This document shows, piece after piece, positions 6,964 through 63,440 of a stretch of DNA of 64,000 nucleotides. The DNA is taken from assembly GCF_025698545.1 (NCBI RefSeq), contig NC_068572.1:682001-746000 (forward strand), in the 5' to 3' direction. The position numbers and the translations under genes are program-made. Under the pieces are notes generated by a model. It was not told the origin of the DNA and searched no databases. It saw only the letters and a list, made by a program, of their open reading frames with translations. Source of the DNA: Gossypium raimondii (Eukaryota > Streptophyta > Magnoliopsida > Malvales > Malvaceae). Position 1 is the stretch's first letter. Every line of letters begins with the position of its first letter.

Positions 6964-7050
6964 CCGACCTTAGCTCAGTTGGTAGAGCGGAGGACTGTAG
7001 TGGCAATCATGGCTATCCTTAGGTCGCTGGTTCGAATCCGGCAGGTCGGA
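6964..7050 (+). tRNA. tRNA-Tyr: tRNA-Tyr (GUA) with intron
   Basis: The acceptor arms CCGACCT (6964-6970) and AGGTCGG (7043-7049) pair fully, followed by discriminator A. The D-arm contains TAGCTCAGTTGGTAGAGCGG and the T-arm GGTTCGAATCC, which are the A and B boxes of RNA polymerase III. The anticodon GTA is at 6997-6999. A 14-nt intron (about 7001-7014, tggcaatcatggct) sits one base 3' of the anticodon, the usual place. Removing it restores a 7-nt anticodon loop. Plant nuclear tRNA-Tyr genes typically carry such an intron. A T-run right after (7051-7064, broken by one A) is the likely Pol III terminator. Confidence 0.97.
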
Positions 7051-8965: not shown

Positions 8966-9033
8966 TTGTTAAATGCTTGTATATGTCAACCACTTGACAA
9001 ACTGACCATTGTTATTTAGGTTCAACAGCAAAG

Positions 9034-9486
9034 ATGGCAACTGTGCGGGTTACCTCCTCTAGTATCGTTCAAGCTTCAATCCCGAACCGATTCACAAGTG
9101 CCATTGTCAAGGCCCCGACTTCTCTTGGATCTTTTAAGAACATCTCCAAATCTTTTGGCTTGAAATGTTCCTCCAATCACAAAACATTAATGGCAGCTTA
9201 TAAGATTAAGCTTGTAGGACCGAATGGTGAGGTGAGCGAGTTTCAAGCCCCTGACGATCAATACATTTTAGATGCAGCCGAGGAAGCCGGAGTTGAACTG
9301 CCATACTCTTGCCGAGCTGGAGCTTGCTCCACATGTGCCGGGAAGATTGTGTCGGGTTCAGTTGATCAATCGGACGGATCCTTCCTTGATGAAAAACAAA
9401 TTGCCGATGGTTACGTGCTGACTTGCGTTTCGTACCCGACCTCAGATTGTGAGATCCACACTCACAAGGAAGCTGATCTTTACTAG
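9034..9486 (+). CDS. FD3: Plastid [2Fe-2S] ferredoxin, root (non-photosynthetic) type
   Basis: A one-electron carrier in the plastid stroma. Root-type forms take electrons from NADPH through FNR and feed nitrite reductase, sulfite reductase and glutamate synthase. The coding part is one exon of 150 aa, as in the family. Residues 1 to about 53 are a Ser/Lys-rich transit peptide, and the mature domain starts near [12 protein letters not shown]. Cluster ligands are Cys93, Cys98, Cys101 ([12 protein letters not shown]) and Cys131 (LTCVSYP). The C-terminus [10 protein letters not shown] is closer to the Arabidopsis FD3 ending (IHTHKETELF) than to leaf ferredoxins, which is the reason for calling the root type; this is from memory. 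The ATG is the first after the leader-intron acceptor at 9019. Its nearest neighbour is the convergent CML48-like gene, as in Arabidopsis At2g27480-27510. Confidence 0.95.
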
Positions 9487-17900: not shown

Positions 17901-18114
17901 CATTTTCGACATCTTGATCTTCCTCTTCTATTTCTTCTTCCTCCTCCTCCTCCTCCTCTTCTTCTTCTTCCTCTTCTTCTTCTACCTCCACTTCTTCATA
18001 CTCCACCTCTTCTTCCATAGTCTCCTCGGGATCGTTATCTTCTTCATCAAGATTGATCCTCTCATCAGATTCAGCAGGCTGTTCAGGCTCATTTGGTCCC
18101 TTTGGCCTCAGCAT
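14958..18114 (-). CDS. hnRNP-Q / LIF2-like RNA-binding protein, three RRMs
   Basis: A nuclear RNA-binding protein. The Arabidopsis relative LIF2 acts with LHP1 at Polycomb-regulated genes, a role I infer only for the family. Exons on the minus strand: 18114-17737, 17324-17208, 17085-16945, 16837-16664, 16448-16241, 16162-15987, 15719-15634, 15099-14958; in frame, 473 aa. Residues about 16-85 are strongly acidic, with a long Glu run. RRM1 has VYIGGI and KGFAFVTF, RRM2 has LFIGNI and RGFAFVEY, RRM3 has VYVKNL and RIGFVHF. A Gly/Pro/Tyr-rich segment and MLLPDGRVGYVLQ follow, and the protein ends RRYRPY, as LIF2 does. MITE-A copies lie in introns 1 and 7. The leader appears to contain a further intron (about 18125-19566). 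Confidence 0.93.
15239..15612. repeat. MITE-A copy 4, in hnRNP-Q intron 7
   Basis: A full-length palindrome; left end GGTATGAAATATTGGAATGG, right end CATGGTACTTTTACC. It makes up most of the last intron (15100-15633). Confidence 0.85.
17377..17706. repeat. MITE-A copy 5, in hnRNP-Q intron 1
   Basis: Ends GGTAAAAGTATCATGCAC and GATACTTTTACC. It fills nearly all of intron 1 (17325-17736), leaving about 50 and 30 bp at its sides. Confidence 0.85.
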
Positions 18115-18124
18115 CTTATGTATC

Positions 18125-19566
18125 TATTTAAACAAGCTTGCAAGGCAATTCTGAAGAAGGCACAGAGGCCAGAAGAATTCAAGGGTAGAAGTACACACAT
18201 ATTGAAAGGAGGAAACAAAAATGATGGCCACAAGGATTTTCAGATATGTATCTCAATTGAAACCCGTGTCACGAGATAAAAAGATTCAAAGGGGTTGCAA
18301 GGTATAATTAAGCAGTCGATTTTAAAGAGAAAGGAAAAAAAAAAAAAGAAATTTCCGAATGATAATTAAGAGGCTTATGTAGTTGGTGCAAGTTTTCAAG
18401 GAATATGAACTTGCTCAAAATCAGAACAATAGTCACAAGACTGCTGTCGAAAAAACAAACAAAAAAGAAAATATTGACATGTTTAAGCTTAAGCCAGCTT
18501 CACGTAATGCAAACTTACAAAAAAAAATTAAAATATATATAAATCAGGCATGACTTTAATGGAAAATGAAAATCAGGCATCATATATATAACCTAATGAC
18601 CAAAAAGTAAAACCAGTCTCAAACTAAATATACAATCACTATACCCTGGTAATAACTTTACATATAATATAAGCACCAAGATTCTTACAGATACCGTAGT
18701 TCGTCCAGTAAAAGTACCATGGAGACTCTTGTATTAGGACTTAGATTGCATTTTTCCCCCACTACTCAAAAAATTGGGCAAATTAGTCTTTATACATTAG
18801 ATCAAAGAGCAAATTAATCCTGTTAAAAATTCTATCCATGTATACGGTTAAAAACAGGTTACTATATCTCAGCATGAGTACACGGAACATACCACATGTC
18901 ATTATATGATTATTCTGTCAGCCATTTCAGTTTCTAACAGTACAAAAGGATGAAATTTTTAACAGAAATGATCAATTTGCTCTTTAGTCTAGCATATAGG
19001 GATCAATTTGTCCAATTTTTTGAGTAGAGGGGACAATATGCAATCTGACTCTTACTACAAGAGCCTTAACTGTTCCGGATTGACCATCAATAAAACAAGT
19101 TTTATGATGGTTCAAAATCTCTCGAAATTATAGAGAGTGCACCCCAATCGACAAATTCAAGAAATTTAAGAATAAGGCCAATAAAACAACACAAAAGTTC
19201 TAACAATCTGTCTTTTGGTATACTAATTAAGGACTAAATTGCAAAGAATGTCATATCTTCCAAGCTACTTATTACATTTCTTAGCAAATCTCAGCATATA
19301 CATAGCCTCAACTAGGAAGCTTTTTTTTCCCTTTTTTTCCTCATGCCTAAAATAAACTCTTTGCTCCACTAAAAGTTCAAATTTGAAGTTCAAAAAATTT
19401 CAAAAACCCCATTGAAGTTCAACAAATACCCACTTCAAATCAGCTCTGAATTAAACGAAATGGGGGGGGGGGGGAAGAAATTAAACCCAGTCTTTTTTCT
19501 CGAGAAACAAGCAGAAATTAGTACTATTTTAATTATGGGTTTTAAGAGAGAAAGAGAAAAATACCC
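18125..19566 (-). other. Probable leader intron of the hnRNP-Q gene
   Basis: On the minus strand, CAACTCGG|GTATTTTTCT near 19566 is a plausible donor and TTTAAATAG|ATACATAAG, a few bases before the ATG, a plausible acceptor. The stretch has no coding potential and carries MITE-A copy 6. A tract of 13-14 G sits at 19461-19474, just outside the inferred intron. Confidence 0.45.
18708..19075. repeat. MITE-A copy 6, in the hnRNP-Q leader intron
   Basis: Left end AGTAAAAGTACCATGGAG; the right arm contains 'gcaatctgactcttactaca'. Both halves match the family palindrome. Confidence 0.8.
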
Positions 19567-19981: not shown

Positions 19982-20345
19982 GGTATAAATACCACAGAAG
20001 TCATTGTATTAAGAATCAGATTGTATTTTGTTCCTCTACTAAAAGAAGACAAATCTATTCTTATATGTTAGATCAAGGAGCAAAATGATCCTTCTATCAA
20101 AAATTTCCCTTTTTACTGTTAAAAATTGGTCTTATACGTCAACATGATATATATATGGTACGCCACGTGTAACTATCTAGTTACTCCGTTAATTACACCA
20201 ATTTTTAATAGTAGAAATAGATGAAGTTTTTAATAGAAATGATTAGTTTACTATTTAATCTAACGTACAGGGACTAATTTACCCAATTTTCGAATAAAGA
20301 GAATAGAATGCAATCTAACTCTTAAAACAATAGCCTCTTTAATAT
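19982..20345. repeat. MITE-A copy 7, intergenic
   Basis: Left end GGTATAAATACCACAG; the right arm contains 'gcaatctaactcttaaaaca'. A diverged full-length member. Confidence 0.75.
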
Positions 20346-21271: not shown

Positions 21272-24200
21272 CTATTTCATGTATTCCAATACGCTTTGGG
21301 TGATATCTTCAAGGAAGGATACAAAACCCATGACACTTGTTAGGCCGGTTCCGTTGACATCTTGTTCCTCGATAAGGTAGTTCTCGAACACTGAGGCATC
21401 GTCTTGCCCTCCTCGGATGAATATGAGTTTGGGGGTAATACAACGTTCTTGCTTCAATTTGTTAATCGTAGACCGTAACAAACCTGATAAGTACACAATG
21501 GTCTCAGAATAAATCACAAGCTAAAACGGTTTCCATTTCGACTTGTTTGTGCAAGTGATAAAAGAGCTTACAGTCGTGGGGTGGAGGAAAAGGAAGGCTA
21601 GGATCTGCTGTAGATGAGTAAAAGACGATTAATGTCGTATATGCATCGAGGAAAAATATTGGACTACCACTGGTGATCAGAGCAGCACGACTCAATGAGT
21701 GCCGCGGATAGGCTTGTTTATCTGGTGTTGAATATGATGTTAGGACTGGATAGATTGCACGGTGAAGAGAACTTGGTTCCAACGCACTGCACCATATGTA
21801 TGGGAAAAACGAAAAGAAGATCAAAATATGCAGTAAGAATACGAGTTTGCATTTACACTAACATTACAATTAAATCCTCTACCGCGTGTTTGGATCTGTT
21901 GATTATTTTAAGAGATTGTGGCATAAAGAATAACCCAGATCCAAAAATGGAAGTACCATATACCTGAAAAGACATTGCACATAGATCCGGTAGTCAGGGT
22001 GAACACCTTCTTCGTGGAAACGCAGAAGAGGGTTTCGAAGCAAAGCAAAAACCAATCGAGGCAAAGGTTGCAGTTGGGGGCATTGCGAGAATGTAACATC
22101 GAGCTGACCCGTGATAGAACTACTTCCATTCTTGTATTGGATAAGGTTAAAAGCCTCATTATATTGAGAAGTGAGGATTACTAGCCAATCATGAAGCAAC
22201 ATCCTGCCCTCTCTAACTCCTTCCTCCAAAGAGGCTAATATGACCTGTAGAATTGATAAAATGCATATAAACTACTAGAGATGATACTCAGAAATAAAAT
22301 GCTCAAGAACGGAGCATGGACACATGCACGGAAAAGTCAAAAAGAGAGACAAAGAAAGAAGGTGAACCTTGTGAACAAGCAATGATAGAACCACTTCAGG
22401 ATCAACACCATCATAGAGTTCATTAAGATTTCGGGCTGTTCCATACTGCAAAGTTCGTATCCTAAGTCTTCGTTTAATAGAATGTTTTCCTCTGCATAAA
22501 AATTTCACATCAAGCCAATCCAAAAAGTAGCGCCAGAAAGCAATATTGTCTATCAAATATGGTTAACGATTTGAACTTCTAGAAGATTTTGTATGAATTA
22601 TGATAAACCGAAGTCTAAGTTCCTCAACCTGCAGATGAGGCTAGAATATTCATGTCCTCATGAATGACACTCGCATGTATATTTACAACGTTTTTCATAT
22701 TTTTAGACTGACAAAGCTGGTAAGAGTGATTTAGGATCTGAATTTCCGATGGGAATAATATACCTACTAGAAGAAAGCAATTCAGAACCAGGGAGTTCCT
22801 CGGGGGGCACGACAACAGTGTATTGAAATGCAATCTGCACCATAGGTTGTTCAGATGAATGTCTGTAAAGGAGGGGGGAAAAAAGAGTGATTATACAATC
22901 TGAATATATTAACATTGATGCTCCTCAAATGGTTATCACCGAAAATAATGTGGAAGAAAACAAAGAAAATGGAAAGGGGGGATGTTTCAAGCATTCACTC
23001 CATACAAGAAATTAACATAATGGAAAGATGTAAATAACATATAATCAAAATAAAGATAATTACCACTGGGCTATTCATACCTTGAAAAACCAACATTATT
23101 AGCAAATTCAAAGTCATAAGCATATGTTGCATACGAATCACAGCAAATAATGTGTTGCACATTTTCATATTGCGGATCTGGGAAGAAGTGACCATACTGC
23201 AAAAGAAGGGAAAAAGAAGTGAGAAGCAAGAACTGATATATAAAGTTCCTTAGCAAGATGATTTGAAAGAAGTAAGAGGCAGTTACGGAATGGCCAGGCT
23301 TGAATTCAGTAGATGTCCTCAATCTTAGTACACAATTAAAAGCATATGGTCGACTTAGCATTCGATACCTGCAAAATAGCATTAATAAAAGAACTGAATT
23401 TAGTTTCATGTCATTAACAAAAGTAATGATGAAGTGCTGAAACAAAAATATGCACAAAAATCCATCTTTAAGAAAAAGAAGAATAAATTAGAAGTGTATC
23501 TAACCTGAAAGAAAATAACTAATCTACTATCCTTTTGTTATGCCATTAACCAATAGAACAACATTTTAGTCCATTAAAACCTAATGATAGAATTTGAGGA
23601 GAAAACAATTGTACTTACATGTCCTGCGGAAGTGTTGAATCATCTGTATTTGAATACAAGAACAGTGAGCCACCACTTTCTATGCTAAGAAATTTAAGAG
23701 AAGCCAAATCTGTATACTCATTTGTAACAGCAAAAATGTCCACACAAACACCAGCTTGAACAGCCACAGCAGCCTGTAAAATATGTCAAGGATACATTCT
23801 CAACTCATACAGCTAAAATTAGAGAAACTGAAAGTCAATCCAAATCTACCAGATCTTTGTAGAATGGTGTCTGCTCGGGAAGTAAAGCACGGTCTGCATC
23901 CTCTCCTTTACTGGCATATTGCTCACCATACCTTCTTGTATCAAGTTGCCCAGGTCCATGATCAGGAGGACCCGAGAGAAAGGCAAAGACTCTAGCTGCA
24001 GTTACGCACAGAGACACAACAGTATGTAGCACATTACATAGATATTTATGATGCTAAAAAGGAAAAACAAGAGATAAAGATATTGCAATTCAGAAGACCT
24101 CTATGCTTATCACACATACCTAATGCAAATGTATTTCCATATTCGGACCCAAGGTAATTGCAAAGAGCTTCCATTGCCATACCAAAACCTCGACCACCCA

Positions 24201-26086
24201 TCAATACACCATTTAACTCTTGACCTGTTCCTGGGGGCGTTCTCTCCCATGAAGTAGTTGGTCTGAGAGTTTCAAGTGCAGATGTGATACGATCCTTACA
24301 AGTATCAACCTGTATAGGTTATTGATTTCCAGGAGACCAGTAAATACTAAATTACATAGAGGGTTCGATTGATATAAACAAGGCAACAGAACAATATCAT
24401 AACTAAAAGACGCTACCAACTAGGCCTTTTTCCAAATACAGACAGATATACCTCCCCCCTCTTTTCCCAATTCTATTCTTATAGAATAACTATTTCATTC
24501 TTTATATATACCATTCAGAGAATCCAATGGGCCACCCGTAAGTTTTATAAAGGCTGTGGCAGAGGACAAAAATAAAGGAAAACAATAAGTGAAGATTACA
24601 TACTGGAGCCAGGAACTGTAACAAAGGCATGACATCTTCAAGCTCAATTGGCAAGGTACCCTCCGCATCTTGAGGGATAAAAACATTCTTTACAACAGGT
24701 ATAGGCCCTTGAACATCATATAACCCTAATTTGTGGCTGAAAGTGGCAAGGCCAAAAAGGGACTCAGGTGCAAGGGCTGCAATGGAAATGAAAATGAAGG
24801 AAAGAATCAACCTTCCAAGAACAAAAATCAAGAATAAACAAAATCAATAAATCATTTGTATCCAACATTAGAGAACCTTCCAATGCCGCCTGCAGTGCAC
24901 TTTTAGTAAGCTCCAAAAATTCTTCAGAAGCTGAAAACAAAAAGGAAGTTTTATATAAGTCTATGTAGATTAAAGAATAGAAACAAGAGCATAATGAGGT
25001 AGTCATCATGCATGGTATCTGCAAAGAGAAGACCTGAGTCAAATACCAACTGCCTTCCCCCCCCCCCCCCCCAAGAACATCCTACTACGAGCAACATAAA
25101 AACTCATATTTATTACACAAAAGCAATCTTTGTTAAAAGTTAACTGTCAAACAACTAATAGATGCCCCCATATTCATGTGTACTATATATACATGGAGGA
25201 GCCGCATGTAAACATGAACTAGTATAAGAAAATAAGGCATATAGATTGAAACCTGAGTGTATCAAATAACGTAAAATGTGCTTTAACACTTTGTCACTAT
25301 CAACTGCTGCATTCAATAATCTTTTTCAGTTTCTTATAACTTCTTTGTACTTTTCACTCTAGAAATGGTCTTAACTACATAATACTCAAATCCAATACTT
25401 TAACTTCTGTAATAATTTTGATCATTCAAGAGTGTCCAATTCAAAATATTTCTTCCACACAAATTTGCAGGAAAGAATTAAAACTAAAAAAAAAAAATCC
25501 ATTTCGTTACCATAAATTCAGCACAAATAATTTGAAATTCAGATAAAAATAATCACAATATTAGAACATTAGAACAAAGTGAAGATCTCACACGACAAAT
25601 CAACGGCCGCAACATACACCGGACGAGCATGCAGAATTTCCTCCTCCGATCCTTCCACTACACAGAAACAATAAAATCAAAGAGTTAATGTAGTAAAAAA
25701 AAATTCATTATCCCTCACTTTCTTCATAATTTTTTCTGAGCAACCAAATCAGACTTACAAGGAAACTCGAGATCGACAAAAGACGACATCATTTCAGCAC
25801 AAGACTGAGGTCGAGAGTATCTAGCGATGGCTTCAGAAGAGAGGCCGTTGAGCGTGCCGCAAAGAGAGCAATTCCATGCCCATTGATCGAGCTCGCAATA
25901 GGTGTTGAAATAAGCGTAGCAATTCTCGCATCGAGGTAAAAGATGTCCGTCCGATCCATAGACCGGCGCTTGACCGTTCTCGTCTTTAGCAGCGAAAGGT
26001 GTTACCGTTAATCCCCAAGGAATGCCACAAGCTTCTTGCGCATCGGAATCGATCGGGAACCGTGACACCGTCGCACGAACCGCCAT
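21272..26086 (-). CDS. SEC23D: COPII coat subunit SEC23 (SEC23D-like)
   Basis: SEC23 pairs with SEC24 in the inner COPII coat at ER exit sites and stimulates SAR1 GTP hydrolysis. Fourteen exons on the minus strand: 26086-25759, 25657-25592, 24930-24877, 24776-24604, 24309-24120, 23995-23850, 23773-23619, 23368-23287, 23196-23081, 22862-22764, 22491-22368, 22244-21964, 21786-21572, 21483-21272. All phases agree, giving 746 aa, near the family's ~760. The zinc finger is Cys53, Cys56, Cys73 and Cys76. The trunk follows (VYVAAVDLSSSEEFLEL, then GVLMGGRGFGMAMEAL), then the beta-sandwich, the helical domain (RRLRIRTLQYGTARNLNELYDG), and the gelsolin domain ending FIRGGQDDASVFENYL. The N-terminus MAVRATVSRFPIDSDAQEA marks the divergent plant SEC23D/A-type clade, recalled as needed for pollen wall formation. 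The D label is by recalled similarity and synteny. Confidence 0.92.
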
Positions 26087-26348
26087 GGCTTTTCCGTATC
26101 CTTTTTTCTTTTTCTCTTTCTAAATTTTCCCGGAAAATAATGTGGTCGTTTTTCCCTGCGGTGTATGTTAGCTAAAGTGATATTCGTGGAGATAGCCAAT
26201 AAGAAACAGAGAATATGCCACGTTGGAATTTGGGCGATGACGTGGCAGATCTCCTTTTATTTTTAATTCGAGTTTTTTTACTTAAATGACTTTTCTTTAC
26301 TCCTAAAATTTCAACTCAAAAGCTAACTCTTTAGTATATTAATTAAAT

Positions 26349-32177: not shown

Positions 32178-32732
32178 TCAAGAGGCAAGAAAAATCTCCA
32201 ATTGAGATCTATTTTCCTGATCAATCACATCAAGAAAAACAGGATCAACGGTAATATGACTATCCACGTGGACTTTAAACCTATGACCCCACCACAACAC
32301 CTTAGCCTTACCACCAATATCCACTTGAGCATCAAGCACCATCTCTCGTTTCGCCACGTCAGCAAAGAACTTCCCGGCGTGATGAGCCAGCTCCACTCCA
32401 TCAAGCCGAGTCGGCAGCTTCAAAACTTGACAAGACCGAGCCCGTTGTGACCCGGCTTTCACCTGAGCCGCTCCGAGCAACGTCCCTTCGTAAAAAATAG
32501 ACATGGCGGTCGAACCGTAATGGATGGGTGCGATGTTGGGGTTAGTGACGTGGACGGTCAGGATTAACTCAGCGTCCACGTGAGGAAGGTTAAGCTTAAA
32601 AGCAGTAAGCTTGATTGAAACTAAGTGGAAAGTTGGGTCTTTTGGTCTTGCACTGAGAAGAGTAGCCACCGCCGTCGCCGACGCAGCTCCGACGAATGCG
32701 GAGGTCCAGCTCCATTTTACCTTTTTGCCCAT
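32178..32732 (-). CDS. LEA2-family protein (LEA14/WHy fold)
   Basis: A single exon of 184 aa. After the start MGKKVKWSW comes a short hydrophobic stretch (SAFVGAASATAVATLL), a possible membrane or signal anchor. A LEA2/WHy beta-sandwich follows: FHLVSIKLTAFKLN, then LILTVHVTNPNIAPIHYGS and FYEGTLLGAAQVKAG. That order (strand, NPN motif, YGS, G) is the family hallmark. These proteins are folded, unlike most LEA proteins, and some protect under drought or act in defence. The exact role cannot be told from sequence. The next in-frame Met lies outside the domain, so the MGKK start is preferred to any upstream non-ATG extension. High GC and no intron contrast with its neighbours. Confidence 0.88.
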   Translation of the reverse strand: MGKKVKWSWTSAFVGAASATAVATLLSARPKDPTFHLVSIKLTAFKLNLPHVDAELILTVHVTNPNIAPIHYGSTAMSIFYEGTLLGAAQVKAGSQRARSCQVLKLPTRLDGVELAHHAGKFFADVAKREMVLDAQVDIGGKAKVLWWGHRFKVHVDSHITVDPVFLDVIDQENRSQLEIFLAS

Positions 32733-33244
32733 CTTTTTGGTTGAAAAATACAAGATAAACCTTATCTTACTTTCTGGGTTTTTTTCGGTCGGAAAATGGA
32801 GAGTGGTGGATGGGAAGTGGAAAGTGGAAAGTAAGCTAAAAGGTGGAGGACGATGTTTGAAATTACGAGATTATCCTTACATTGTAAATTATTATTTGGA
32901 TCTACAAGGGTGTTTTTGGAATTAAAAAAGACAATAAGGAATTAAGTATGGAGATGTCTAAAAGCACGTTTTTGGGAAGGTAAGACACGTGGCTATAATA
33001 AATGGGCCAATGGTAAGCTGACACGCTAGTGATGTAACTAATGATTGGATTACAGCTCGTATAAAAAAAACATGTGATTTTTATTGTTTTAGTGCTACAC
33101 ATATGTACTAATAAAAGTAGCTTTAAATTTCTGGACACAGTAATTTAATTTCAATTTAATGAATAAGAATATTCCAAACAAGAAAAATAATTGAATTGAA
33201 AATAAATACATCCATTATCTCTATTAGGATAATATTTTTTCGGG
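32733..33244. other. LEA2 upstream region
   Basis: Holds the LEA2 promoter and leader. 'gtggaaagtggaaagt'-type short direct repeats occur near 32800-32832. No other gene seen. Confidence 0.5.
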
Positions 33245-46269: not shown

Positions 46270-49249
46270 ATGGCGATTCTTTACGCCGTGGTGGCTCGAG
46301 GCACGGTGGTTCTAGCGGAGTTCAGTGCCGTAACGGGGAACACCGGTGCGGTGGCACGACGGATCCTCGAGAAACTCCCGCAAGAAGCCGATTCAAGACT
46401 CTGTTTATCGCAGGATCGATATATCTTTCATATACTTAGATCGGATGGCCTCACTTTCCTCTGTATGGCTAATGATACCTTTGGAAGTACGTTTTCTTCA
46501 TGAATTTTGGGTCTTTTTATCCTTTGTTACGAGTTTAAATTTTTAGGTAAATGAAGCAGTAAAAATATATAATCGTTACTTGAAATGCGCGCTTCATTTT
46601 AATTTTTAGTACTTGTAACTGATTTTATTGTGTAATTGTCGATATAATTTTCATTTAATTTAGCATTGATTTTTTTTTAAATACTTTAGTGCTATGTTTA
46701 GGAACACGAATTTGGAGATTTGGAATTTTATTTACCTTGTAAAATTTGAGAAGATATGCATAAATTAGTTGAGATTCAATATCCTTATATCCTTGTTGGA
46801 TAGGTTGTTTCCGCACTTTCTATGATCTAAAAGGTTAAACATGATTATGTGTGTATATAAATTTAATAAGAGGTAAGGGGTCGGGATTGTATCCAACCCG
46901 GGACTGATGATCTCAAGTCCTTTGGCACTCCACCTATGTCAGTCGACAATCATGCATAAATTAGTTCAAGTTTGATATTTGCCTTGCACCTGTCCGGATG
47001 AGAATACAAGTTCATCTTCTGGGAAGTACACTTGTTGGGAGGGTTTTAGCTGAAAACGTTATTGGCTTGCCCGGATTTAGTCCCTAAGTTCAATGTGACT
47101 TGGGATACCTTGGGATTACACTAAAGGGTAAAAAAGAAAAAGATAGAGATGACTATAATTATGAGTCACGATTAACTATTGTGTTTCAATGCAGGGAGAG
47201 TTCCATTTTCGTACTTGGAGGATATTCACATGAGGTTCATGAAAAATTATGGTAGAGTGGCTCGTTATGCACCAGCATACGCGATGAATGATGAGTTCTC
47301 ACGGGTATTGCATCAACAAATGGAGTTTTTCTCCAGTAGTCCAAGTGCAGATACTCTCAATCGTGTTAGAGGTGAAGTGGGTGAGGCAAGTATCTTGCAT
47401 TGGTTGGAATTTCATTTTCTACATTCTTTTTTTTTTTTACCTTGGGCCTGAAAATGTGTTTATTGGTTGCAAATTGACTTGCTTTTCATACTAAGTCAAG
47501 TATGCTCATATTTTTGACTATCCACTTCCTAAGCCATAGTCAGTGTAATGTCTTGTATATTCAAATCTAGTCCTTGTTGAGGGGGTCGGCTCTCTTTCGG
47601 GAGAAGCCTTTGAATTTGAAGTGTCGTCAACTGAGCAGCCGATCGGACTCTTAAACATTGGAGGTATTGTGCCCGGGATGTTTATGCTCGGTTTTTGCCC
47701 CGGGGTTTCTCTCCCAACTTCAAGAAGAACCCAACGGGTTCATGGAATTCAGGGGCTAAAACCGAGCATAGACGCTTTGGGCACAATACCTCCACTGTTT
47801 GAGGGTCCGATTGGCTGCTCGGCAGACAACACTTCAAATACTTCTCCTGAAAGAGAGTTGGACCTCCTCAACTGTCCTGAATGTGGCAGTTTTCCAACTT
47901 TGCAAACAACATACTAGTGTAATCACTAGTTTGGCTGAGAAAAAAACCCGTCAATTGCTCAATATCTATTCTGAAAATGTGTGTGCATGTTATTGTCTTT
48001 ATTGACATCATTGAATGGAAGCATATCAAGTGATCAATGTGCCCTGAATTTGTTATTTTTATTTAATTTTCAGATACGTTCAATCATGGTGGAAAACATT
48101 GAGAAGATACTCGAGAGAGGTGACAGGATTGAGCTTCTTGTTGACAAAACTGCTACAATGCAGGATGGTGCATTTCACTTCAAGAAACAGTCTAAACGCC
48201 TTCGTCAAGCACTTTGGATGAAAAATGCCAAACTCTTGTAAGTACATCCAACTTTTTTTTAACTGATTATATTTACAGAAATATAGAGAAATAGCCAATT
48301 TACGAGTCCTCTTATCATCTATAATCTTGGAGCAAAAGCATGAATAGTGGCTTCCATTGTCAAGGGAACCACAATGGAGCAATTTTTATTTTATATCTAG
48401 AGATTTTATCTTGCCACTGACCTTGTTCAATTTGGGTTGATCAAAATGGTGAAATGTCAATCCTCCGATGCATCTAATATGAATACTGTGTACAAGGCTC
48501 GTTATAAAAGGAAAACCGGACAAACCGAGAAAAACATCACTTTTAGCTTTGATTATCATTGAAGGATGTTTTTTTTGAGTAGTCAGTTGAGTAGCCACTG
48601 GTTTTGACCAATTTTCGTGGACAATTGACACAGAAAACTTATCTGATTGTACTTTTAGCTTGCATTTCTTATTATCCATGCACATGGATAGAAAATCATC
48701 CTAACATCGGTAAAAGTATCATGGAGGTCCTCTACACTAAAAAATGGGCAAATTAGTTACTGTATGTTAAATCAAAGAGCAAATTGATCCTTCTGTTAAA
48801 AATTCCATTAATTTCTACTATTTAAAACTGATCCCTATACAACAGCATGAGATACACATGACACATCACGTGTCACTGCTCGGTTATTTTGTCAGCCGCG
48901 CCAGTTTTTAATTGCACAAATGGATGAAAACTTTAACAAAAATAACCAATTTACTCTTTGATCTAATGTTCAAGGATTACTTTGCCCAGTTTTTAAGTAG
49001 AAGGGGCAAAATGCAATCTGACTCCTAGTACAGGGGTGTCCATGGTATCTTTACTTCCTAACATCTAATTAATTACACGAACTGTAAACTGCTCACATCT
49101 TTGGTGCATGTTGAATACCACATAAGGGAACTTATACATCTACTTTTACAACAAGCAGGGCCATGCTAACATGCTTGATCGTGCTGATACTCTACCTAAT
49201 AATTGCTGCTTGCTGTGGTGGTATCACTCTACCATCATGCAGATCCTGA
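46270..49249 (+). CDS. VAMP714: R-SNARE of the longin type, VAMP714
   Basis: A vesicle SNARE of the plant VAMP71 group, which acts in fusion at the tonoplast and endomembranes; VAMP714 has been tied to PIN vesicle delivery in Arabidopsis. Exons: 46270-46486, 47195-47385, 48074-48237, 49159-49249; in frame, 220 aa as in the family. The longin domain covers about 1-120 (MAILYAVVARGTVVLAEFSA, then FHILRSDGLTFLCMANDTF). The SNARE motif covers about 135-190, with the zero-layer Arg in GDRIELLVDKTATMQD. The basic juxtamembrane FKKQSKRLRQALWMKNAKLL is followed by a C-terminal anchor LAMLTCLIVLILYLIIAACC and the VAMP714 tail GGITLPSCRS. Intron 2 has a GC donor (GAG|GCAAGT). Intron 2 also holds a hairpin element and intron 3 a MITE-A copy. 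Confidence 0.96.
47571..47880. repeat. Compact hairpin element in VAMP714 intron 2
   Basis: The left arm has 'gagggggtcggctctctttc', 'cagccgatcggactcttaaa', 'ggaggtattgtgcccgggat' and 'atgctcggttttt'. The right arm has the reverse complement: 'aaaaccgagcatagacgctt', 'gggcacaatacctcc', 'gggtccgattggctgctcgg' and 'gaaagagagttggacctcct'. Arms are about 120 bp with a ~50-bp loop. The GC content is higher than the surrounding intron. It looks like a young MITE or a long-hairpin RNA source. Confidence 0.85.
48709..49056. repeat. MITE-A copy 10, in VAMP714 intron 3
   Basis: Starts GGTAAAAGTATCATGGAGG and ends CCATGGTATCTTTACTT. It is flanked by an exact 9-bp direct repeat CCTAACATC (48700-48708 and 49057-49065). 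A 9-bp target duplication is the hallmark of Mutator-type transposition and gives the family its likely class. Confidence 0.9.
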
Positions 49250-53646: not shown

Positions 53647-53736
53647 CCAACATTCCACTAACCATTTTTCTCATCAAAATCTTAAATTCCCATTTCTCTT
53701 TTCAACAAACAAACACACATATATTCTCTCTCTCTA

Positions 53737-55712
53737 ATGGCGACAGCTGAGAAAAGCGGTGAAATAGCAATCAACATGTCGGAGACAAAAGCCAGTACTA
53801 AAGGAAAAGCTCCATTGTTAAACTCTTCCAAAGCTTTCGCCGTCGTCGAACCACCGAACCGAGGAGCCAAAAGAGGTATCGCCATTGGTGATTTCTTTTT
53901 GAGACTATGTGCCCTTGGAGCCGCCCTCGGTGCCGCTATATCAATGGGGACCGCCGATCAACTTCTCCCTTTTACAACTCAGTTCCTCCAATTCGAAGCT
54001 CAATACGATGATTTTGATGCTTTCCGGTATGTTTTCTTTTTCTATAATTTTATTTTTTGGGGAAATTAACATTTAATCCTTAAACTTGTTAATTGTTTAC
54101 ATTTTGGTCCTTTAATATTTTTTTTTTGGATCCACGTTAGTTTTGGAGCTTGGTAGATTTTTTTTCCTCAATTTATCTTTCAACTTTGAGATTGTGTATA
54201 CCATCATTTGAATTTTTTGTATTTTTATTTTATATAAAATTATAAATTTTAGATGATGATAGAAAAAACCTTGACTTTCTTAAAATAGAAAATTTATGTT
54301 TTAGCTTCTCTAAAATTTTAAAATATTATAAACTAATATATAATAAAATTATATTTTAATCCCTAAAATAAAAAAAAATTGTGATTTAATCTTTTGGCTC
54401 TCGTACAAAGTTTGAATTTATGTTCAATCCTTACAAAATAATTTCCTGTCTTCATCCCTATGTGTTTTACGTCAAAATTTTAATCAAAATATGTTAACTA
54501 TTTGAATAAAATATTAAATTTATTCTTTCTTTTAAAAGTTAATAAAAATTATAAAAGTAAAAGGAATCAAATTATATCAAATTAAAATATAATGATAAAT
54601 TCTCAAATTTAAACATAATTGAAGGATGAAAATCGTAATTTGATCAAATTCAAATAAATATGTGTTATCTAATATATATATATATATATATATTAATTAT
54701 GTAGGTATTTTGTGATCTCACTTGCCATGGTTACTGGTTATCTTCTCCTTTCATTGCCATTTTCCATAGTCTGCATCATTCGGCCACTTGCAACAGCTCC
54801 AAGGCTCTTCCTTGTCATCTTTGATAGTGTAAGTTAAACTCGGGAACCAGTAGTCAAAAAATTGGTTTAATTTCATTAAATGTCCTGAAATTATCGTCTG
54901 TATTTTAAATTGGTCATAAATTTCAAAAGTTCTAATTATGTCTTCAAAGTTTTAGCATTGTAACGATTAGGTCATTCTGAAAATTTAGTTGCCAATTTAG
55001 ACATTAACTGTCGATTTAAATATGAGGTGGGTTTATATTTAGAATATGTATACTTATAGTTTCTTTTATCAAATCACGTTTTTACAATTTGATCCATTTA
55101 TTTTAAATATATTCCACATAAAGTTCGAGTTAGTATTTAATGCTCAAGCTAGTAACTCGATTGATATTCGATACTTTTAAAAGTTTAATTAGAATGTTAG
55201 TCATAATTTAAAGATATATAGTGCAATTAACTGTCGTATTTAAAATTTCCTTAATGTGAGGGGAGCCAAAGGTGACCCCTTCAAAAATTTGTAAAGTTGG
55301 CATTAAGCTCTTCAAAATTTTTGAAAATTTCAATTAGACCCTCCCAACTTAATGCCACGTTCCGCCACTGGTTTTCAACCAAGATCGAAACATGAATACA
55401 GGGATTTAACCCTCATACCAAAATCTCAATAATATTTAATTACCGAGTATAATCTATTCATCATTATGATCGTTATTTTATGATGTCTAATTACAGATAA
55501 TGGGGGGTGTAACCATAGCAGCAGGTTCAGCTGCTGCAGCAATTGTATATGTGGCTCATACAGGGAACCCAAACACCAATTGGCTTCCTATTTGTCAACA
55601 GTACGGTGATTATTGCCAAAGTGCAAGTGGAGCAGTGATAGGTTCTTTAATAGCTGGTGCAGTCCTCTTCTTTATAGTTATACTTTCAGCTTTTGCTCTT
55701 AAAAGAAGCTGA
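53737..55712 (+). CDS. CASP: Casparian strip membrane protein, copy a
   Basis: CASPs are four-pass membrane scaffolds that mark the endodermal domain where lignin of the Casparian strip is laid down. Exons: 53737-54026, 54705-54828, 55497-55712; in frame, 209 aa. The N-terminal cytosolic part (to about residue 52) is variable. TM1 contains the conserved Arg ([18 protein letters not shown]). Extracellular loop 1 is [22 protein letters not shown]2 is [19 protein letters not shown], and TM3 begins after the conserved Asp of LFLVIFDS. Loop 2 is [22 protein letters not shown]4 ends ALKRS. The usual LPFFTQF loop motif reads LPFTTQF here. It is a tandem paralogue of the gene at 61240, with identical exon structure; both introns carry repeat-G material. 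Confidence 0.95.
54260..54470 (+). repeat. Repeat G copy in CASP-a intron 1
   Basis: Blocks 'cttaaaatagaaaatttatg', 'aaaattatattttaatccc', 'gtgatttaatcttttgg' and 'ttcctgtcttcatccct'. Confidence 0.5.
54670..54693. repeat. (AT)n microsatellite before the CASP-a exon 2 acceptor
   Basis: A run of alternating TA at the end of intron 1. The second CASP gene has a (TG)n(TA)n tract at the same place (about 62119-62140). Confidence 0.85.
55255..55375 (-). repeat. Repeat G-like fragment in CASP-a intron 2
   Basis: 'gaggggagccaaaggtgacccc' and 'cgttccgccactgg' resemble the termini of the family at 27010. Confidence 0.4.
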
Positions 55713-55854
55713 AAAAACCACTTCCCATGGAAGTTAAGTTTCCATTGATTTATGAAAAAAAAGCATTTGAATGATTTCCTTTGCTTTTTTTGGTGTGTAA
55801 TCTTATGTTCCCAACTTTCTTTTTAAATGTTGAATGTAATACACTTTCATTCTA

Positions 55855-56545
55855 TGTAAGTCCCTTTACTCTCTAAAAATTTGAATTCTATCCCTTTGCT
55901 TTTTTATTTTTGAATTCTTGCCCAATTGTTAACTTTGTTAATTTTTTTCTGTTAAAATTCATTTTCATTACTGTTATAAAGAACGTTGATAATGGTGGTA
56001 AAAAGATCGCAAAACAATAAGAAAAGAAAAATAAGAACACACAAATTTTACGTGAAAACCCTTTTGAAAAAAAAAATCACGAGCAAATGAGAAGAAATTC
56101 ACTAATATTGAAAAACGAATGATATAAGAGGAGTTTTTACTCCATCTATTTAAGGATTGAAAAACTCTATTCTAATCAAAGTCAAATTGTAGAAGTATAA
56201 TTCTATATGGACTCAACTTGTGACCCTCGGCCTCTCGCCCCATAGATTCCTTCATTTTGTCACTATATTTATTCTTCAACAAGTGACGAGATTCGGGTCA
56301 TACAATCACTAACAATTATAATTTTATTCTTTTTGTTACATAGTTAACAAGAGAGTATTTTCTTATTTCAAAATGTCACACCGATGAATTTAACAAAAGA
56401 ATTTTAATGGTGTTAACAATTAGACCTAAATTTTGAATTCTAAAAAGTAAAAGGGCCAAATTCTTAAAATAAAAATAGAGAAAATAAATTCCAATTTTCT
56501 AAAAGTATAGATACCTAGAGCATATTTTAACCATTATACAATGTA
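55855..56545. repeat. MITE-D copy 2, split by an LTR remnant
   Basis: The left half ('gtaagtccctttactctcta', 'ttgaattctatccctttgc') lies before 55982 and the right half ('caaaatgtcacaccgatgaa', 'aaagggccaaattcttaaaa') after 56326. The copy at 38205 has the two halves joined, so the LTR sequence inserted into this element. Confidence 0.7.
55982..56326 (-). mobile_element. Solo LTR remnant, Ty1/copia family
   Basis: Minus orientation. Ends are of the TGTTAG...ATCAAC type, and the body matches the LTR-like sequences at 57688 and 59341. No internal region is attached. It is a fossil nested in MITE-D copy 2. Divergence from the other two LTRs is visible throughout, so it is not recent. Confidence 0.7.
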
Positions 56546-57059
56546 AATCTGTCATTCAATGTTCCTACTTCCAATTTTCATTATAAAAGTTGTGCTCTAA
56601 GCCAAACTTTGTGTACTTATTAAAGAAATGAAAATCATTATTAACTTGATCAAAGAGATTAATTGATACAACTTAAGAGTTTGTAAGTTTAATTAATTTT
56701 TCATCAAAGTTTAAGGGTTTAGCTAAAATAAATAAATTTGGGTAAATTCAATTATTAATCCTAATCAATTTAGTCCAAATTTCACTAAAAATCAATTTGA
56801 TCCAAATTCAAAATTTTGTTTTAATCCCAAATATTGAAAGAAATTCAATCTAAAACCTCAATTCAATAATACAAGGCCCAATAAGCTCGAAATTAAAATG
56901 CTTAGAGAAAATTAACACCCACAATACGAGAGAAAATTTTATTTAACAAATTTATAAAAAAATTGATATAAAAGTCAAATGTGGCTTTGGGTTTAAATCT
57001 TATAATCTTCATCATGTGTATGTATTTTGCTAAATTTATCAAAATATAAAAGACATGAA

Positions 57060-57560
57060 TACACTAAAAATAATATTTGTTACTTTATAAAAGGAATGTG
57101 CTTTTGGTAATTTCACAACTGAGTTATGACCCGGTTGATGGATGATACCAACTCAATCAAACTCTTAATAATTATACAGAGAGATATTTAAAAAATATAT
57201 TTATAAAAAATTGATATATAAACAAATAAAGATATTTAAAACCATTGTGTTTTAAATTCAAAACCATAATATGCATTCTTGTTTTATATATAAATGATGT
57301 AAAAGGATAAAAATACCCTCGAAATAATATAATTTATCTTGTAAAACAATGATATTTTAGTCATGATCTAACTAAGTTAGTGTCTAATTGACTTGTGACA
57401 CCAACTCAGTCAAGTGCTTAACCTATGTTATACTATATTTTTATCGAGTTAGTGTCATCTATAGCCAGGTCCTAACTCAGTTGTTAAATTTCCAAAAAAA
57501 CATTTATTTTAACAAAGAGATATATATGAATGTAAGGGTATTTTTGTCTTTTTCTATAGA
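57060..57560. repeat. Inverted-repeat element, family H copy 1
   Basis: 'ggtaatttcacaactgagtt' with 'atgacccggttgatggatga' near 57114 is mirrored by 'tcatctatagccaggtccta' with 'actcagttgttaaatttcc' near 57449. A related element lies at 60265-60650. Confidence 0.6.
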
Positions 57561-57687
57561 ATCAGAAAAATATATACTTATGATGAGATTTGAATCAAGA
57601 CACTAAACACACAATCTCTCAACTTCACCGTTTTAACCAGAGTAATATTTGATTTTTACATTAATTCCTAATAATTATGTTATAGTG

Positions 57688-58180
57688 AATGTTGATAATG
57701 ACAATAGAATGATCGCAAAATAAGAAAAATAAGAACACACAGATTCCCTTATTTTGCCACTGTATTTATTTCTTCAATAAGTAACGGGATTTGGGTCACA
57801 CAAACTCTAATAATCTCCACATTGATACACGAATTCTCAACGAACAAGTTCTCTACCTCTTCCACAAAACCTCTAAAAGGGTATTCTTCACCAATAAACA
57901 TCAACCAAGTCCAAGCAATGCTCAAACTTGGTTATAGGAAGTGATTTAGTCATCAAATCTGCAGAATTATCACGAGTACTAATTTTGCTCACAACAATAT
58001 ATTATCACGAACAACAATATCATATACAAAATGATACTGAATATCAATGTGCTTTGTTCTCTCATGAAACATTTGATCATTTGTAAGGAATATGACAGTC
58101 TGACTATCACAAAATACTGTACTGATATGAAAGTCTTTATTGAGTTGACTAATATAAATTTTTTTATTATTTTAAACAAA
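57688..58180 (-). mobile_element. Ty1/copia fragment: LTR part plus 3' end of pol
   Basis: 57688-57815 matches the LTR family. 57830-58180, read on the minus strand, contains short stretches resembling copia RNase H (for example a DSQ-type and a HIDIQYHF-type motif), placed correctly next to a 3' LTR. The element is broken and incomplete, with several interruptions, and is clearly old. Confidence 0.7.
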
Positions 58181-58729
58181 TTTTTGACAAACACTTAAAA
58201 ACATAATGTAAAACACGTTTTTTAAACATGTTTTTTCCGACCCTAATTTTGTGGGTATAATTTTATTTTTCTAACACTAACCTTTAATGGTCAAAAGATG
58301 AAGGAAGAAGGGATTAGTTTCAACCCCACATCTTCCATTTTTCCCTCTTACAAAAAATAAAGCCTTTTGCCCTAAGTTTGCCTACAAAAACTACTGCTTT
58401 GCTTGTTTTATGCCAACTCAAAAAGTTCATTTCAGGAAAAAAAAAAACCCACTACCCTTTGGCTCTTGTTATTTGATTATGACCTTCAAGCTTTGTTTTA
58501 TGGCTTCAGATCTCCATAAATATCTTCCTTCTACCCTTCTCTTAATACTTCAATCTTTCCCCATGGCAGATATATATATATATATGTATATATCTGTATA
58601 GAGAAATATGAGCTTCGTGTTGAAGAGATTGTGAAGATCATTAACATCAGCATTAGCATCATCCCATAGCATATTGCACTGTTCCATGCATTGTTATCAA
58701 GCATGACATGCAACCATGCATATGTTTTG

Positions 58730-58860
58730 GCATCCATGTGTGTATCATGTATGTGCCTGGCTCCCTGTATGCCATCCGCAGAACCTATCGAACAACGATG
58801 GCATCTGTGAATGGCGTATGAGGAGTCAAGCATATATTTCTACATATATATATATATATC
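58730..58860 (+). ncRNA. MIR160: MIR160 precursor (microRNA miR160)
   Basis: miR160 silences ARF10/16/17-type auxin response factors and shapes root cap, leaf and flower development. The mature 5p strand lies at 58754-58774 (starts TGCCTGGCTCCC, ends TATGCCA) and agrees at all 21 positions with the conserved plant miR160 as I recall it. The 3p strand lies at 58814-58834 (starts GCGTATGAGGAG, ends AAGCATA). With 2-nt 3' overhangs, 17 of 19 duplex positions pair, counting G-U, with mismatches at 5p positions 4 and 12. The 39-nt loop is 58775-58813. The lower stem continues into 'atgtatg' and the AT-rich 3' side. An ATAAATA (58516-58522) could be the TATA element of the primary transcript. The gene lies between the two CASP genes on the same strand. 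Confidence 0.95.
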
Positions 58861-59340
58861 TCCATCAATATACTTCTTTTGCAGGCTCTACTTTTTTCAT
58901 CTTCTTGCTTTCCAGTTAAACTAAAGGGCTTCAAGGTACTTCATTTTCCTCATCCTCATCTTCTGCTTTAGTCTTAATATCTGTTATTAGGGATTTTCTT
59001 CTTCTTTGCTATTATTGTTATTTAGTACTCAAGTCTTGTCTGATGGATTTTTCATGTGATCTCTGCTAACTTTATCTTATCACTGTGTTTTCAAATAAAT
59101 AATCTCAGTTCTTTAATCATTCATTTAAGTTAAGCTCTTATAGACAAGCATAAAAAGCAAAGGGATAATGGAAGTTCTTCAACTTCCACTGTAGTTTGAA
59201 TGAAATTTACAGTAATATGATATTACAGATTAATTCTAGTAATTTGTATGTTCTATCTGTAACTTTTTTGCTTAAAAAATATGAATTATGGAAATAAGAA
59301 ATGAATTTGATTACAGTATATCAATCTTCCAATTAAATCA

Positions 59341-59655
59341 CGTCGATAATGATAATATGATGATCGTAAAGCAATAAGAAAAAAGGAAAAATAAAACAGA
59401 ACGGGGAAATTCTTTCGAGAAAAAATCACGGACAGAAGAGGAGAAATTCACTAATATTGAAAACTAGAACGTTACAAGAGGAGTTTCGACTATATCTATT
59501 TAAAATTTGAAAAACCCTATTATAATCAATATCAAATAGAAGAAGTGTAGTTTTATACATATTCTACTTGTGTGCCATGGTCCGTACCATTTTTGCAACT
59601 GTATTTATTTCTTCAACAAGTGACAGGATTCGGGTCATACAAACTCGAACAACCT
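59341..59655 (-). mobile_element. Solo LTR remnant, Ty1/copia family
   Basis: Third LTR of the family in this interval, same orientation as the other two, with no internal region attached. A fossil, diverged from its relatives. Confidence 0.65.
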
Positions 59656-60264
59656 GCATTGTAGATTTACCATAATCTAATTTTTATTTAAGTATTTAAT
59701 TCTGTTGATGTTACCCATCAATCGAGTACCAATGGACGTACAATTTTTTCTACTGGAATTAGTACATATCGATTCTAGTCTATTTCAGTGTATCATTTCA
59801 AATTGATTGACATTTAAAAAAAATATTTACAAATACCAAATAAATGATATTGAATAAAGTTTAAATATAAAATATTCATCAATTACATAAGATTTTTTAT
59901 AAAAGAAACTGAAGGATGAGTACGGATTTTTTCTTTGATATTTGGGTCAGTGGATTTTTATTATTATATTTTAAATATGAAAGTATGTTTGAGAAAAAAA
60001 ATGTTAAACTTTACTTTTCTTTGTAATATTTTTTTTATTGGTCATTATATTCCAATTAAATCTTTCGTATAATAGTAAATAGTTAAAAGTTTTATATTTT
60101 TTAACATTATTCATGCATCAGATGCACCATGTTCTAGCCGGTGCGACTGGTGAAAATCGAAATTTTCACCAGTGCAAAAAAAAAGTGTTGCTTGTTCCGT
60201 TTTAGCACTAGAACAGTGCGCACTGAATAATACGGTCGAAACCGGTGCGAAATCGGTCACCATA

Positions 60265-60650
60265 ATCCCATCTCAGTTGTGAAATTACCAAAATCCCTTT
60301 CCATTTACAAAGTTATAAACGTTACAATAAGGGTGTTTTTGTTTTACATTGTTATATAAAATATAAAGAAATAAGCATCTTTACCATTTCAATAAAAGTC
60401 TCATTTATTTTTTTATATCATTTTTTTATAAATATATTTGTTAAACAATTTTTTACTTACAACGGGTGTCATTATTTAGTATGTATATAAGATGTAAAGA
60501 GATAAAATAGCCTCAAAATAATATGAATTACTTTATAAAAAATAATATTTTAATTATTATCTAACTGTATTAATGCCCAATTAACTCATGGTGTTTTATA
60601 TAAAAAAATATATATATATATATATAATCAACTCTACAATGAGAGTTTTA
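60265..60650. repeat. Inverted-repeat element, family H copy 2
   Basis: Left 'tctcagttgtgaaattaccaaaa'. The right part has 'attatctaactgtattaatg' and 'cccaattaactcatggtgt', as in the copy at 57060. A (TA)n tract lies at 60607-60626. Confidence 0.5.
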
Positions 60651-61154
60651 AACGTACATGTACATTTTCAATTTAAAATCCTAATCCAATGTTATCATCG
60701 TTGATAATTTCATTACAATTTGTCAACTTAACATATATATTTCCGTCAGTCACATGAGCTTAACTTAATCAATATGTCAATAAATTGAAAAATTTTGATA
60801 GGAAATATTTACGATTTTAATTATTGGAATGTGATTCTTAAATCAAAACAATTGGAGGACTTAATTTCTAACCTTTTAAGTACAATGACTAAATCTCAAA
60901 ATTTATTAAAGTACAGGGACAAACAACATATTTAAACCATAAAAAAAAAACTACTCCATCTTCTACTCTCCTAGAAAAATTCTGCATGATTTGTTGGAAA
61001 TGGTGCAAGTAGCAAAACAACTCCAATCTTACATAATAAATTGATACCGTACCAAATACAATATCAAATATATCTCTAACTACACCTAGTCAACTCTATA
61101 TTTTATATTATTTATTTAACCTTACATTTTTATTTTTATTTAATTTCATCCCTC

Positions 61155-61162
61155 TATATAAA
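61155..61162 (+). promoter_or_regulatory. TATA box of the second CASP gene
   Basis: TATATAAA, 78 bp before the ATG, in the same setting (after 'catccctc') as the first CASP gene. Confidence 0.75.
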
Positions 61163-61239
61163 CACGACATTCATCTTTAATCCCATTCATCTTTCAACAA
61201 AACATATTGCTCTTTGATTTCCTTTACAATCTCTCTTTA

Positions 61240-63177
61240 ATGGCGACAGGCAAAAATGGTGAAACAGCTATCAACATGCCAGAGACAAAAGCCAGTGTTA
61301 AGGGAACAGCCCCATTGTTAAACTCCTCGAAAGCTGTCTCCACGGTCGAACACCCGAACCGAGGAGTGAAAAAAGGGTTCGCCATCGGCGACTTCGTTTT
61401 GAGACTATGCGCCCTTGGAGCCGCCCTTGGCGCCACCGTAGCAATGGGGAATGCTGATCAAGTTCTTCCTTTTTTCACTCAGTTCCTCCAATTCGAAGCT
61501 CAGTACGATGATTTCGATACTTTCCGGTATGTTTTTCAAGACTTAAATGATAAATTAAATAGTTAACATTTACAATTTTTTTGTCAATTTGACCGTTATT
61601 TGTTTTTTAGATAAATTTGACCCTCAAACTTTAAAAAAAATTCAATTTAATCATCAGCTTTTTGAAAAATAGTTGAATCTATGTTTTTAATGAAAATACC
61701 GACTAAAATGTGAAAATTTTAAACATAGCATTTTGCATGGCAATCTAAGTGTACTTTATGCTAATATTTTTTGAATTTTTATGAAATTTTTATAATTATT
61801 TTTAAATTTAATTTATTTTTATAAAATTTAAATTATTTATTGATGTGACATATAAAATAAATAATATTATGCCAGCATGAAGTGCACGCGGAATGCAATG
61901 CGAGTTGCCACGCCAATTTCATTAAAAAAAATTAATGCTTTAGTTAGTATTCCATTAAAGAAGGTTTGACACTTTTTGAAAAATTAATGACTAAATTTAA
62001 CTAAAAAATAAAAATAAAAATAAAGGTCAAATTGACCAAATATTATTAAAGTTAAGGACTAAATTTAACATTATAACTTTATTTATTAATCTAATTTTAT
62101 ATTTAACCATATATCATATGTGTGTGTGTATATATATATACTGATTTTAATTATACAGGTTTTTCGTGATGGCAATGGGCATGGTTTCTGGTTATCTTTT
62201 CATTTCATTGCCTTTCTCCATAATTGGCATCATTCGTCCATTTGCAACAAAGCCAAGGCTCTTCCTTGTCATCTTTGATTCAGTAAATTCAACTCACACT
62301 ATATATATATATATATATGAACTTTTTTAGAGTTATTTCAGTTAGAAATTTGATAATTTCGATCGATTTAACCGTTAGTTTAGATATCATGCGAGTATAT
62401 TTAAAACACGTGTACATACTGCATGAATTTAATGTGGATCAATTTCTATAACATGTTGAATCCAACCACGTGTTTATAGTTTGATCCATGCGGAGACGAG
62501 TACAAGGAAGTAGACAGGGGCTTTGGCCTTCAATGGAAACTGGCCTTTTAGTCTCTTTATAAATGATGAAATTAAAAGTTTTTTTGGTAAAATTTCATAT
62601 TGGCTTCCTCAAAAAAATGAAAAGATTTCTATTTTATCCCTTCAAAATGATAAAACCATAAGTTGATATGGATAAAATTACACTTTAGTCTCTCAAAATT
62701 TTCATAACTCAATTTCTATCCTTAAAAAATTTCTAAATTCACCTCTAGATCCCAGTATTTTAAATATGTTACTCATTAGATTCAAGCAGGTATTTAATGC
62801 TTAAACTAATAGCTCGACTGACAAAAGAACTCGAAAACATTTTAAAATTAATCCCATCTCGAAACAAAATAGTATTAAATTAGTGGGTATAATGTATTTG
62901 GTTGTTATGATGGTTATTTTATGGGTTTGAAGGATAATTATTAGTTGTTGGATTGTTGCAGATGATGGCAGCTTTAACCATAGCCGCAGGTTCAGCATCT
63001 GCATCGATGGTGTATTTGGCTCATAACGGGAACGATGACGTGAATTGGCTTCCTTTTTGTCAACAATTTGGTGATTTTTGCCAAAGTGCAAGTGGAGCAG
63101 TGATAGGTTCTCTATTAGCTGCTGCACTCCTCTTGGTTATAATTATCCTTTCAGCTTTTGCTCTTAAACGAAACTAA
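61240..63177 (+). CDS. CASP: Casparian strip membrane protein, copy b
   Basis: Tandem paralogue of the gene at 53737, with the same three-exon structure and phases: 61240-61526, 62159-62282, 62962-63177; 208 aa. It has the same role in defining the Casparian strip membrane domain. Loop 1 reads [20 protein letters not shown] and keeps the canonical LPFFTQF. TM1 keeps Arg ([18 protein letters not shown]) and TM3 keeps Asp (LFLVIFDS). Loop 2 is [20 protein letters not shown], with both conserved Cys. It ends ALKRN. The start is the ATG of [20 protein letters not shown], aligned with [20 protein letters not shown] of copy a. Intron 1 holds a MITE-E copy and intron 2 a repeat-G copy. The 3' UTR shares a block with copy a. 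Confidence 0.95.
61570..62070. repeat. MITE-E copy 3 in CASP-b intron 1
   Basis: The left part 'caatttgaccgttatttg' with 'ttcaatttaatcatcag' pairs with the right part 'atgactaaatttaactaa' and 'ggtcaaattgaccaaatatt'. The centre has 'gtgtactttatgctaat' and 'gccagcatgaagtgcac'. Confidence 0.65.
62500..62745 (+). repeat. Repeat G copy in CASP-b intron 2
   Basis: Blocks 'gggctttggccttcaatgg', 'ttctattttatcccttcaaa', 'aaaattacactttagtctc' and 'aaattcacctctag'. Confidence 0.5.
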
Positions 63178-63440
63178 GAAAATCTCACCCCAAAAATTAA
63201 AAGAAAAAGCTTTTGTTGTTGTTGTTTTCATTATTGGAGGTTAGTTTTCATTGATTTACGAAGTGTGTGTGTGTTGTGGAACAAAGCATTTGAATGATTT
63301 CATTTGCTTTTTGGTGTGGAATTTTAATGTCAAATGTTATACACTTTTAACAATATGTAAAATCATTTTATACATGTAAATGTTTGATTCATTAGTGTTA
63401 CAACTTCCAATGGTTAAATATATATATATTATTTTCGATT

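Follow-up and report, generated by a model that had tools for sequence, protein, structure and literature searches.

The occurrence of a MIR160 hairpin between two Casparian strip (CASP) genes on the same strand in Gossypium raimondii raises two questions: whether the hairpin is a genuine and intact microRNA locus, and whether its position beside endodermal barrier genes carries any meaning for the regulation of either. Both were addressed in a 64-kb stretch of contig NC_068572.1, referred to here as the window, and all coordinates given below are those of the window.

Identity and fold of the MIR160 hairpin

A Rfam covariance-model scan placed the MIR160 precursor core at 58751-58835 on the + strand, with a score of 72.0 bits against RF00247 (gathering score 48) and an alignment running end to end over the model (positions 1-90 of 90). 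The antisense of the hairpin scored 39.3 bits, under the cut-off of 48, and in a permissive scan of 55700-61240 with E up to 0.1, MIR160 and its own antisense were the sole matches. The guide strand, miR160-5p, occupies 58754-58774 (+ strand) and was assigned through sequence identity and duplex geometry, being the exact canonical 21-mer. The star strand, miR160-3p, lies at 58814-58834 (+ strand) and pairs with 5p. In the predicted fold, the 5p positions 58754 and 58772 are paired with 58832 and 58814, respectively, so that each end carries a 2-nt 3' overhang, and the duplex contains two C/A mismatches, at 58757/58829 and 58765/58821. The arms and the proper duplex that the initial annotation had read from the sequence were therefore recovered at the same positions. 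Plant microRNAs are recognised by a hairpin, a miRNA/miRNA* duplex, 2-nt 3' overhangs and at most five mismatches, and the locus agreed with the sequence criteria tested, having two mismatches and the 2-nt overhang at both ends.

Folding of 58730-58860 gave a minimum free energy of -58.4 kcal/mol. Dinucleotide shuffles of this segment averaged -32.17 (z -7.43), and none of the 200 was as stable. The miR160/miR160* stem was kept in the longer folds of 58700-58900, an interval that had been put forward earlier as a check, and of 58600-58950. Folding also delimited an extended hairpin, including a lower stem, at 58736-58849 (+ strand), the ends of which are only approximate because the A/T-rich base of the stem adopts other pairings when 58700-58900 is folded. 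The 21-mer was found once in the window when both strands were searched, where the chance expectation for an exact match is ~3e-8 by our own arithmetic, and Rfam, 21-mer and similarity searches of the window found neither a second MIR160 nor a relic of one. The description of this locus as an intact MIR160 gene was thus upheld by its Rfam score, its exact mature sequence and the stability of its fold.

In its exact mature 5p, star arm, hairpin and strand the locus is the same as the MIR160 family at large (RF00247; Arabidopsis MIR160A-C). It differs from the Rfam consensus in having a shorter loop, with five model positions deleted, and from the family in having CASP genes as its genomic neighbours. 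Extracts from two cotton studies bear on the mature sequence: an identical miR160 21-mer, common to several MIR160 loci, is listed with 1383 reads in Table 2 of one (PMC3726788), and the other (PMC4321542) reports miR160-ARF pairs backed by degradome data. A literature text search did not find the star sequence in any paper, and the 21-mer had no match among viral or prokaryote contigs.

Sequence around the hairpin and repeated elements in the window

The hairpin was held to lie in a stretch otherwise full of repeats, a description that stood in part. Of the 5527 bases separating the two CASP genes, 1848 are similar to some other part of the window at an E-value of 1e-5 or less, a count of within-window copies only, by which repeats having no second copy there would be missed. 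MIR160 itself, on the other hand, sits in a low-copy island of 1.1 kb between the repeats (58240-59330, 1091 bases), for which a similarity search within the window returned one 29-base match elsewhere at E up to 0.01. A dispersed repeat of ~340 bases is present on both sides of MIR160, at 55977-56315 and 59334-59652 (73% identical), with partial similarity to it at 57663-57819. An inverted repeat at 57004-57590, with arms of ~155 bases that are 73% identical, is probably MITE-like, and the stretches adjoining it show similarity to segments at 60272-60454 and 60480-60586. Upstream of the hairpin, a word search identified a TA-rich stretch with TATA-like words at 58570-58593 (+ strand) as a weak candidate for the pri-miR160 core promoter; these words sit mostly within a simple TA repeat.

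Over the whole window, 13 matches reached the Rfam gathering score, comprising 12 microRNA matches, 11 of which were to MIR7502, and one tRNA. The MIR7502 matches fall at seven places (3291-3435, 48794-48938, 17450-17593, 15354-15495, 18821-18964, 20095-20235 and 2119-2231), with both strands matching at four of the seven. At six of these places the inverted repeat extends into the flanks, where 16-18 of 25 bases match (10 at the seventh), as compared with random pairs used as a control, for which the 95% level stood at 13 and the maximum among 500 at 16. The seven places have the look of a MITE-type element in several copies more than of seven separate microRNA genes, a caution that calls of this kind ought to be backed by small-RNA data. 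Available extracts of PMC5471329 describe gar-miR7502 as having seven precursors, six of them in introns. By title, 14 of 16 papers naming miR7502 deal with cotton, the other two being on peanut and on legumes, so that the MIR7502 matches would point to Gossypium or a close relative as the origin of the window. The tRNA-like gene at 6964-7050 (87 bases) scored 60.2 bits in Rfam, and ARAGORN, run with the bacterial code, assigned it no anticodon.

Two intact CASP genes flank the hairpin

CASP gene A, encoding 209 aa, extends over 53737-55712 on the + strand (exons 53737-54026, 54705-54828 and 55497-55712) and matches PF04535 at 8.4e-44 and TIGR01569 at 1.7e-41. CASP gene B, encoding 208 aa, extends over 61240-63177, also on the + strand (exons 61240-61526, 62159-62282 and 62962-63177), and matches the same two models at 7.2e-44 and 1.2e-41. 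Our gene models gave both a three-exon structure and a tandem arrangement, and both genes are intact, with GT..AG introns, open frames and coding sequences of 630 bases (A) and 627 bases (B) that end in stops. MIR160 lies ~3.0 kb downstream of A and ~2.4 kb upstream of B, on the strand of both, so that the tandem CASP genes first noted on either side of it proved to be real neighbours. The two proteins share 153 of 208 aligned residues. Their first-loop stretches differ, the motif being changed in CASP A relative to CASP B, and QLLPFTTQF occurs where the first-loop signature of true CASPs is approximately ESLPFFTQF. No PDB chain reached an E-value of 0.001 or better in a search with CASP B, which in viral contigs gave three pattern matches, none of which was confirmed.

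The DNA similarity detected between the two copies lies within 53727-55805 and 61230-63326 and takes in the exons, parts of both introns' sequence and a small segment on the 3' side, the stretches of CASP A similar to B being 53727-54035, 54675-54841, 55091-55164, 55428-55482, 55491-55717 and 55757-55805. The 300 bases upstream of the two genes align poorly. MIR160 is not included in the duplicated stretches that were detected, and none of these resembles MIR160. NG86 estimates over ~150 synonymous sites gave a dS of 0.36 and a dN/dS of 0.43, values to which we attach no date for the duplication, since their noise is too great and gene conversion may have acted on the pair. The placement of MIR160 between two CASP genes would be most simply accounted for by tandem duplication of the CASP gene adjacent to it.

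As tandemly arranged three-exon genes for PF04535/TIGR01569 proteins, the two resemble the cotton tandem CASP pairs Ga03G0527/Ga03G0528 and the Ga08G0113-0118 group (PMC7199351, extracts). The same extracts count four tandem CASP pairs in G. arboreum, on Chr03 and Chr08, one of the four being printed twice, and give five root-expressed CASP genes for the Chr08 group. Extracts of PMC13205616 and PMC7084617 place that group near the fuzz gene GaFZ/GaGIR1. The pair in the window is a candidate member of the Chr08 group or a candidate counterpart of Ga03G0527/Ga03G0528. Only two CASP genes are present in the window, as against the five root-expressed genes of the Chr08 group, and since the window stops 0.8 kb past CASP B, more CASP genes may lie beyond it.

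A Pfam scan of 18 non-CASP gene pieces left six without a family and one with a sub-cut-off match only. Among the others are a tubulin/FtsZ GTPase (1318-2827), a 2Fe-2S ferredoxin (8998-9480), EF-hand (12911-13318), RRM (15966-18123), Sec23/Sec24 (21909-26119), LEA_2 (32184-32870) and longin/synaptobrevin (47176-48235) pieces. In Arabidopsis, CASP3 has a Sec23-like gene and a ferredoxin gene of root type in its neighbourhood, and CASP A and B may therefore be CASP3 co-orthologues.

Search for a functional link between MIR160 and the CASP genes

The 5p and 3p strands were each scored for target sites against both CASP genes and both coding sequences (eight comparisons), with 200 shuffled microRNAs scored on identical stretches as a length-matched control. 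Over the eight comparisons, the best scores ranged from 9.5 to 14.5 penalty points; on the coding sequences of A and B they were 14 and 14.5 for 5p, and 11.5 and 9.5 for 3p. Shuffles of 5p did as well or better in 97 of 200 cases on gene A, 43 on gene B, 188 on coding sequence A and 195 on coding sequence B, the corresponding numbers for 3p being 184, 39, 105 and 14. The lowest of these, that of 3p on coding sequence B (9.5; 14/200), is unremarkable because it is the best of eight comparisons. A miR160 5p or 3p target in the CASP genes was thus rejected, the scores lying within length-matched chance.

Promoter words were counted on either side of the hairpin. The auxin hexamers TGTCTC and TGTCGG are absent from 56315-58750 and 58836-61000, an absence that counts for little because only 0.24-0.72 of each would be expected from their density in the window. 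AC-type MYB words number two on one side of the hairpin (3.1 expected) and one on the other (2.8 expected). CNGTTR words, also of MYB type, number 0 within 1 kb upstream of CASP A, 3 upstream of CASP B and 1 upstream of MIR160, each against 2.2 expected, and the 2.4 kb leading up to CASP B holds seven against 5.4 expected.

Published work places both modules in roots. In cotton, silencing of GaCASP27 led to more lateral roots, and GaMYB36 bound the GaCASP27 promoter in yeast (PMC7199351), and in Arabidopsis the miR160-ARF10/16/17 module affects root growth (PMC11675975). As to the two together, among the literature matches listed for MIR160 and Casparian strip, as far as their extracts go, there was no report of a MIR160-CASP gene order or linkage, from which we do not claim that such an order is unpublished.

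Discussion

Taken on its sequence, the locus is very probably an ordinary and functional MIR160 gene that works by the standard mechanism, that came to be flanked through tandem duplication of a CASP gene, and whose neighbours are regulated independently of it. A transcript of 58751-58835 folds, by computation, into the hairpin. As judged from the overhangs and from the family, the DCL1 complex would cut this hairpin to release the 5p/3p duplex, and 5p would be loaded in AGO1 to direct cleavage of ARF10/16/17-type mRNAs transcribed elsewhere in the genome, a step that is established for the family and is expected of this copy. The CASP gene beside MIR160 would have been duplicated in tandem, and each neighbour would be under its own control.

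An intact hairpin could nonetheless be silent or redundant, one of several paralogues that is no longer meaningfully transcribed. MIR160 is a multi-gene family, with three loci in Arabidopsis (AT2G39175, AT4G17788 and AT5G46845; PMC11675975, extracts), and one copy can therefore be dispensable; the lack of a clear promoter, with the TATA-like words lying in a simple TA repeat, points the same way. We regard this reading as unlikely, however, given that neither arm nor the stem shows damage and the mature sequence is exact, where an unconstrained copy would be expected to decay. Much further from the data is a resemblance to MIR160 in an inverted repeat that arose by chance or from a transposon. 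Inverted-repeat elements scored as microRNA by Rfam do occur in the window, namely those matching MIR7502, yet the hairpin has no second copy there, fits the MIR160 model over its full length and contains the mature 21-mer unchanged, and we give this origin virtually no credence.

The remaining alternatives concern the position of the gene, and not its nature. MIR160 and the CASP pair might form a functional neighbourhood, in which cis-elements or chromatin of root or endodermal type, common to these genes, would bring about co-expression of auxin tuning and barrier formation. That both modules act in roots, as mentioned above for GaCASP27 and miR160-ARF, that the three genes lie on one strand within 10 kb, and that CNGTTR words slightly exceed expectation over the 2.4 kb before CASP B would all suit such an arrangement. 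We nevertheless consider it quite improbable: the CASP target sites are no better than chance, repeats separate MIR160 from the CASP genes, CNGTTR words over 1 kb ahead of CASP A, CASP B and MIR160 stand at 0, 3 and 1 where 2.2 would be expected, and the auxin hexamers are absent from both flanks, the last being a weak argument. The Arabidopsis MIR160 loci, which by locus number are not known to be adjacent to CASP1-5, were also counted against it; locus numbers for CASP1-5 were not found in PMC11431883. Still harder to credit is an old selected linkage of the order CASP-MIR160-CASP, with root elements in the 5.5-kb interval serving both MIR160 and the downstream CASP gene, although if true it would couple auxin-response tuning to endodermal differentiation.

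The initial annotation had singled out the neighbourhood as unusual, and had itself called any regulatory link speculation. A link between auxin response and endodermis through the proximity of MIR160 and the CASP genes stays speculation here, and the notion of a meaningfully unusual neighbourhood is left unsupported by the want of a CASP target beyond chance, the (weakly informative) lack of auxin hexamers and a duplication that left MIR160 out. Thus an ordinary MIR160 gene beside a duplicated CASP gene is the reading we retain. It confirms a further intact locus of a deeply conserved and already well-studied microRNA, together with two intact CASP paralogues, and the MIR160-CASP neighbourhood would matter only if the gene order were conserved and the genes were co-expressed in the endodermis.
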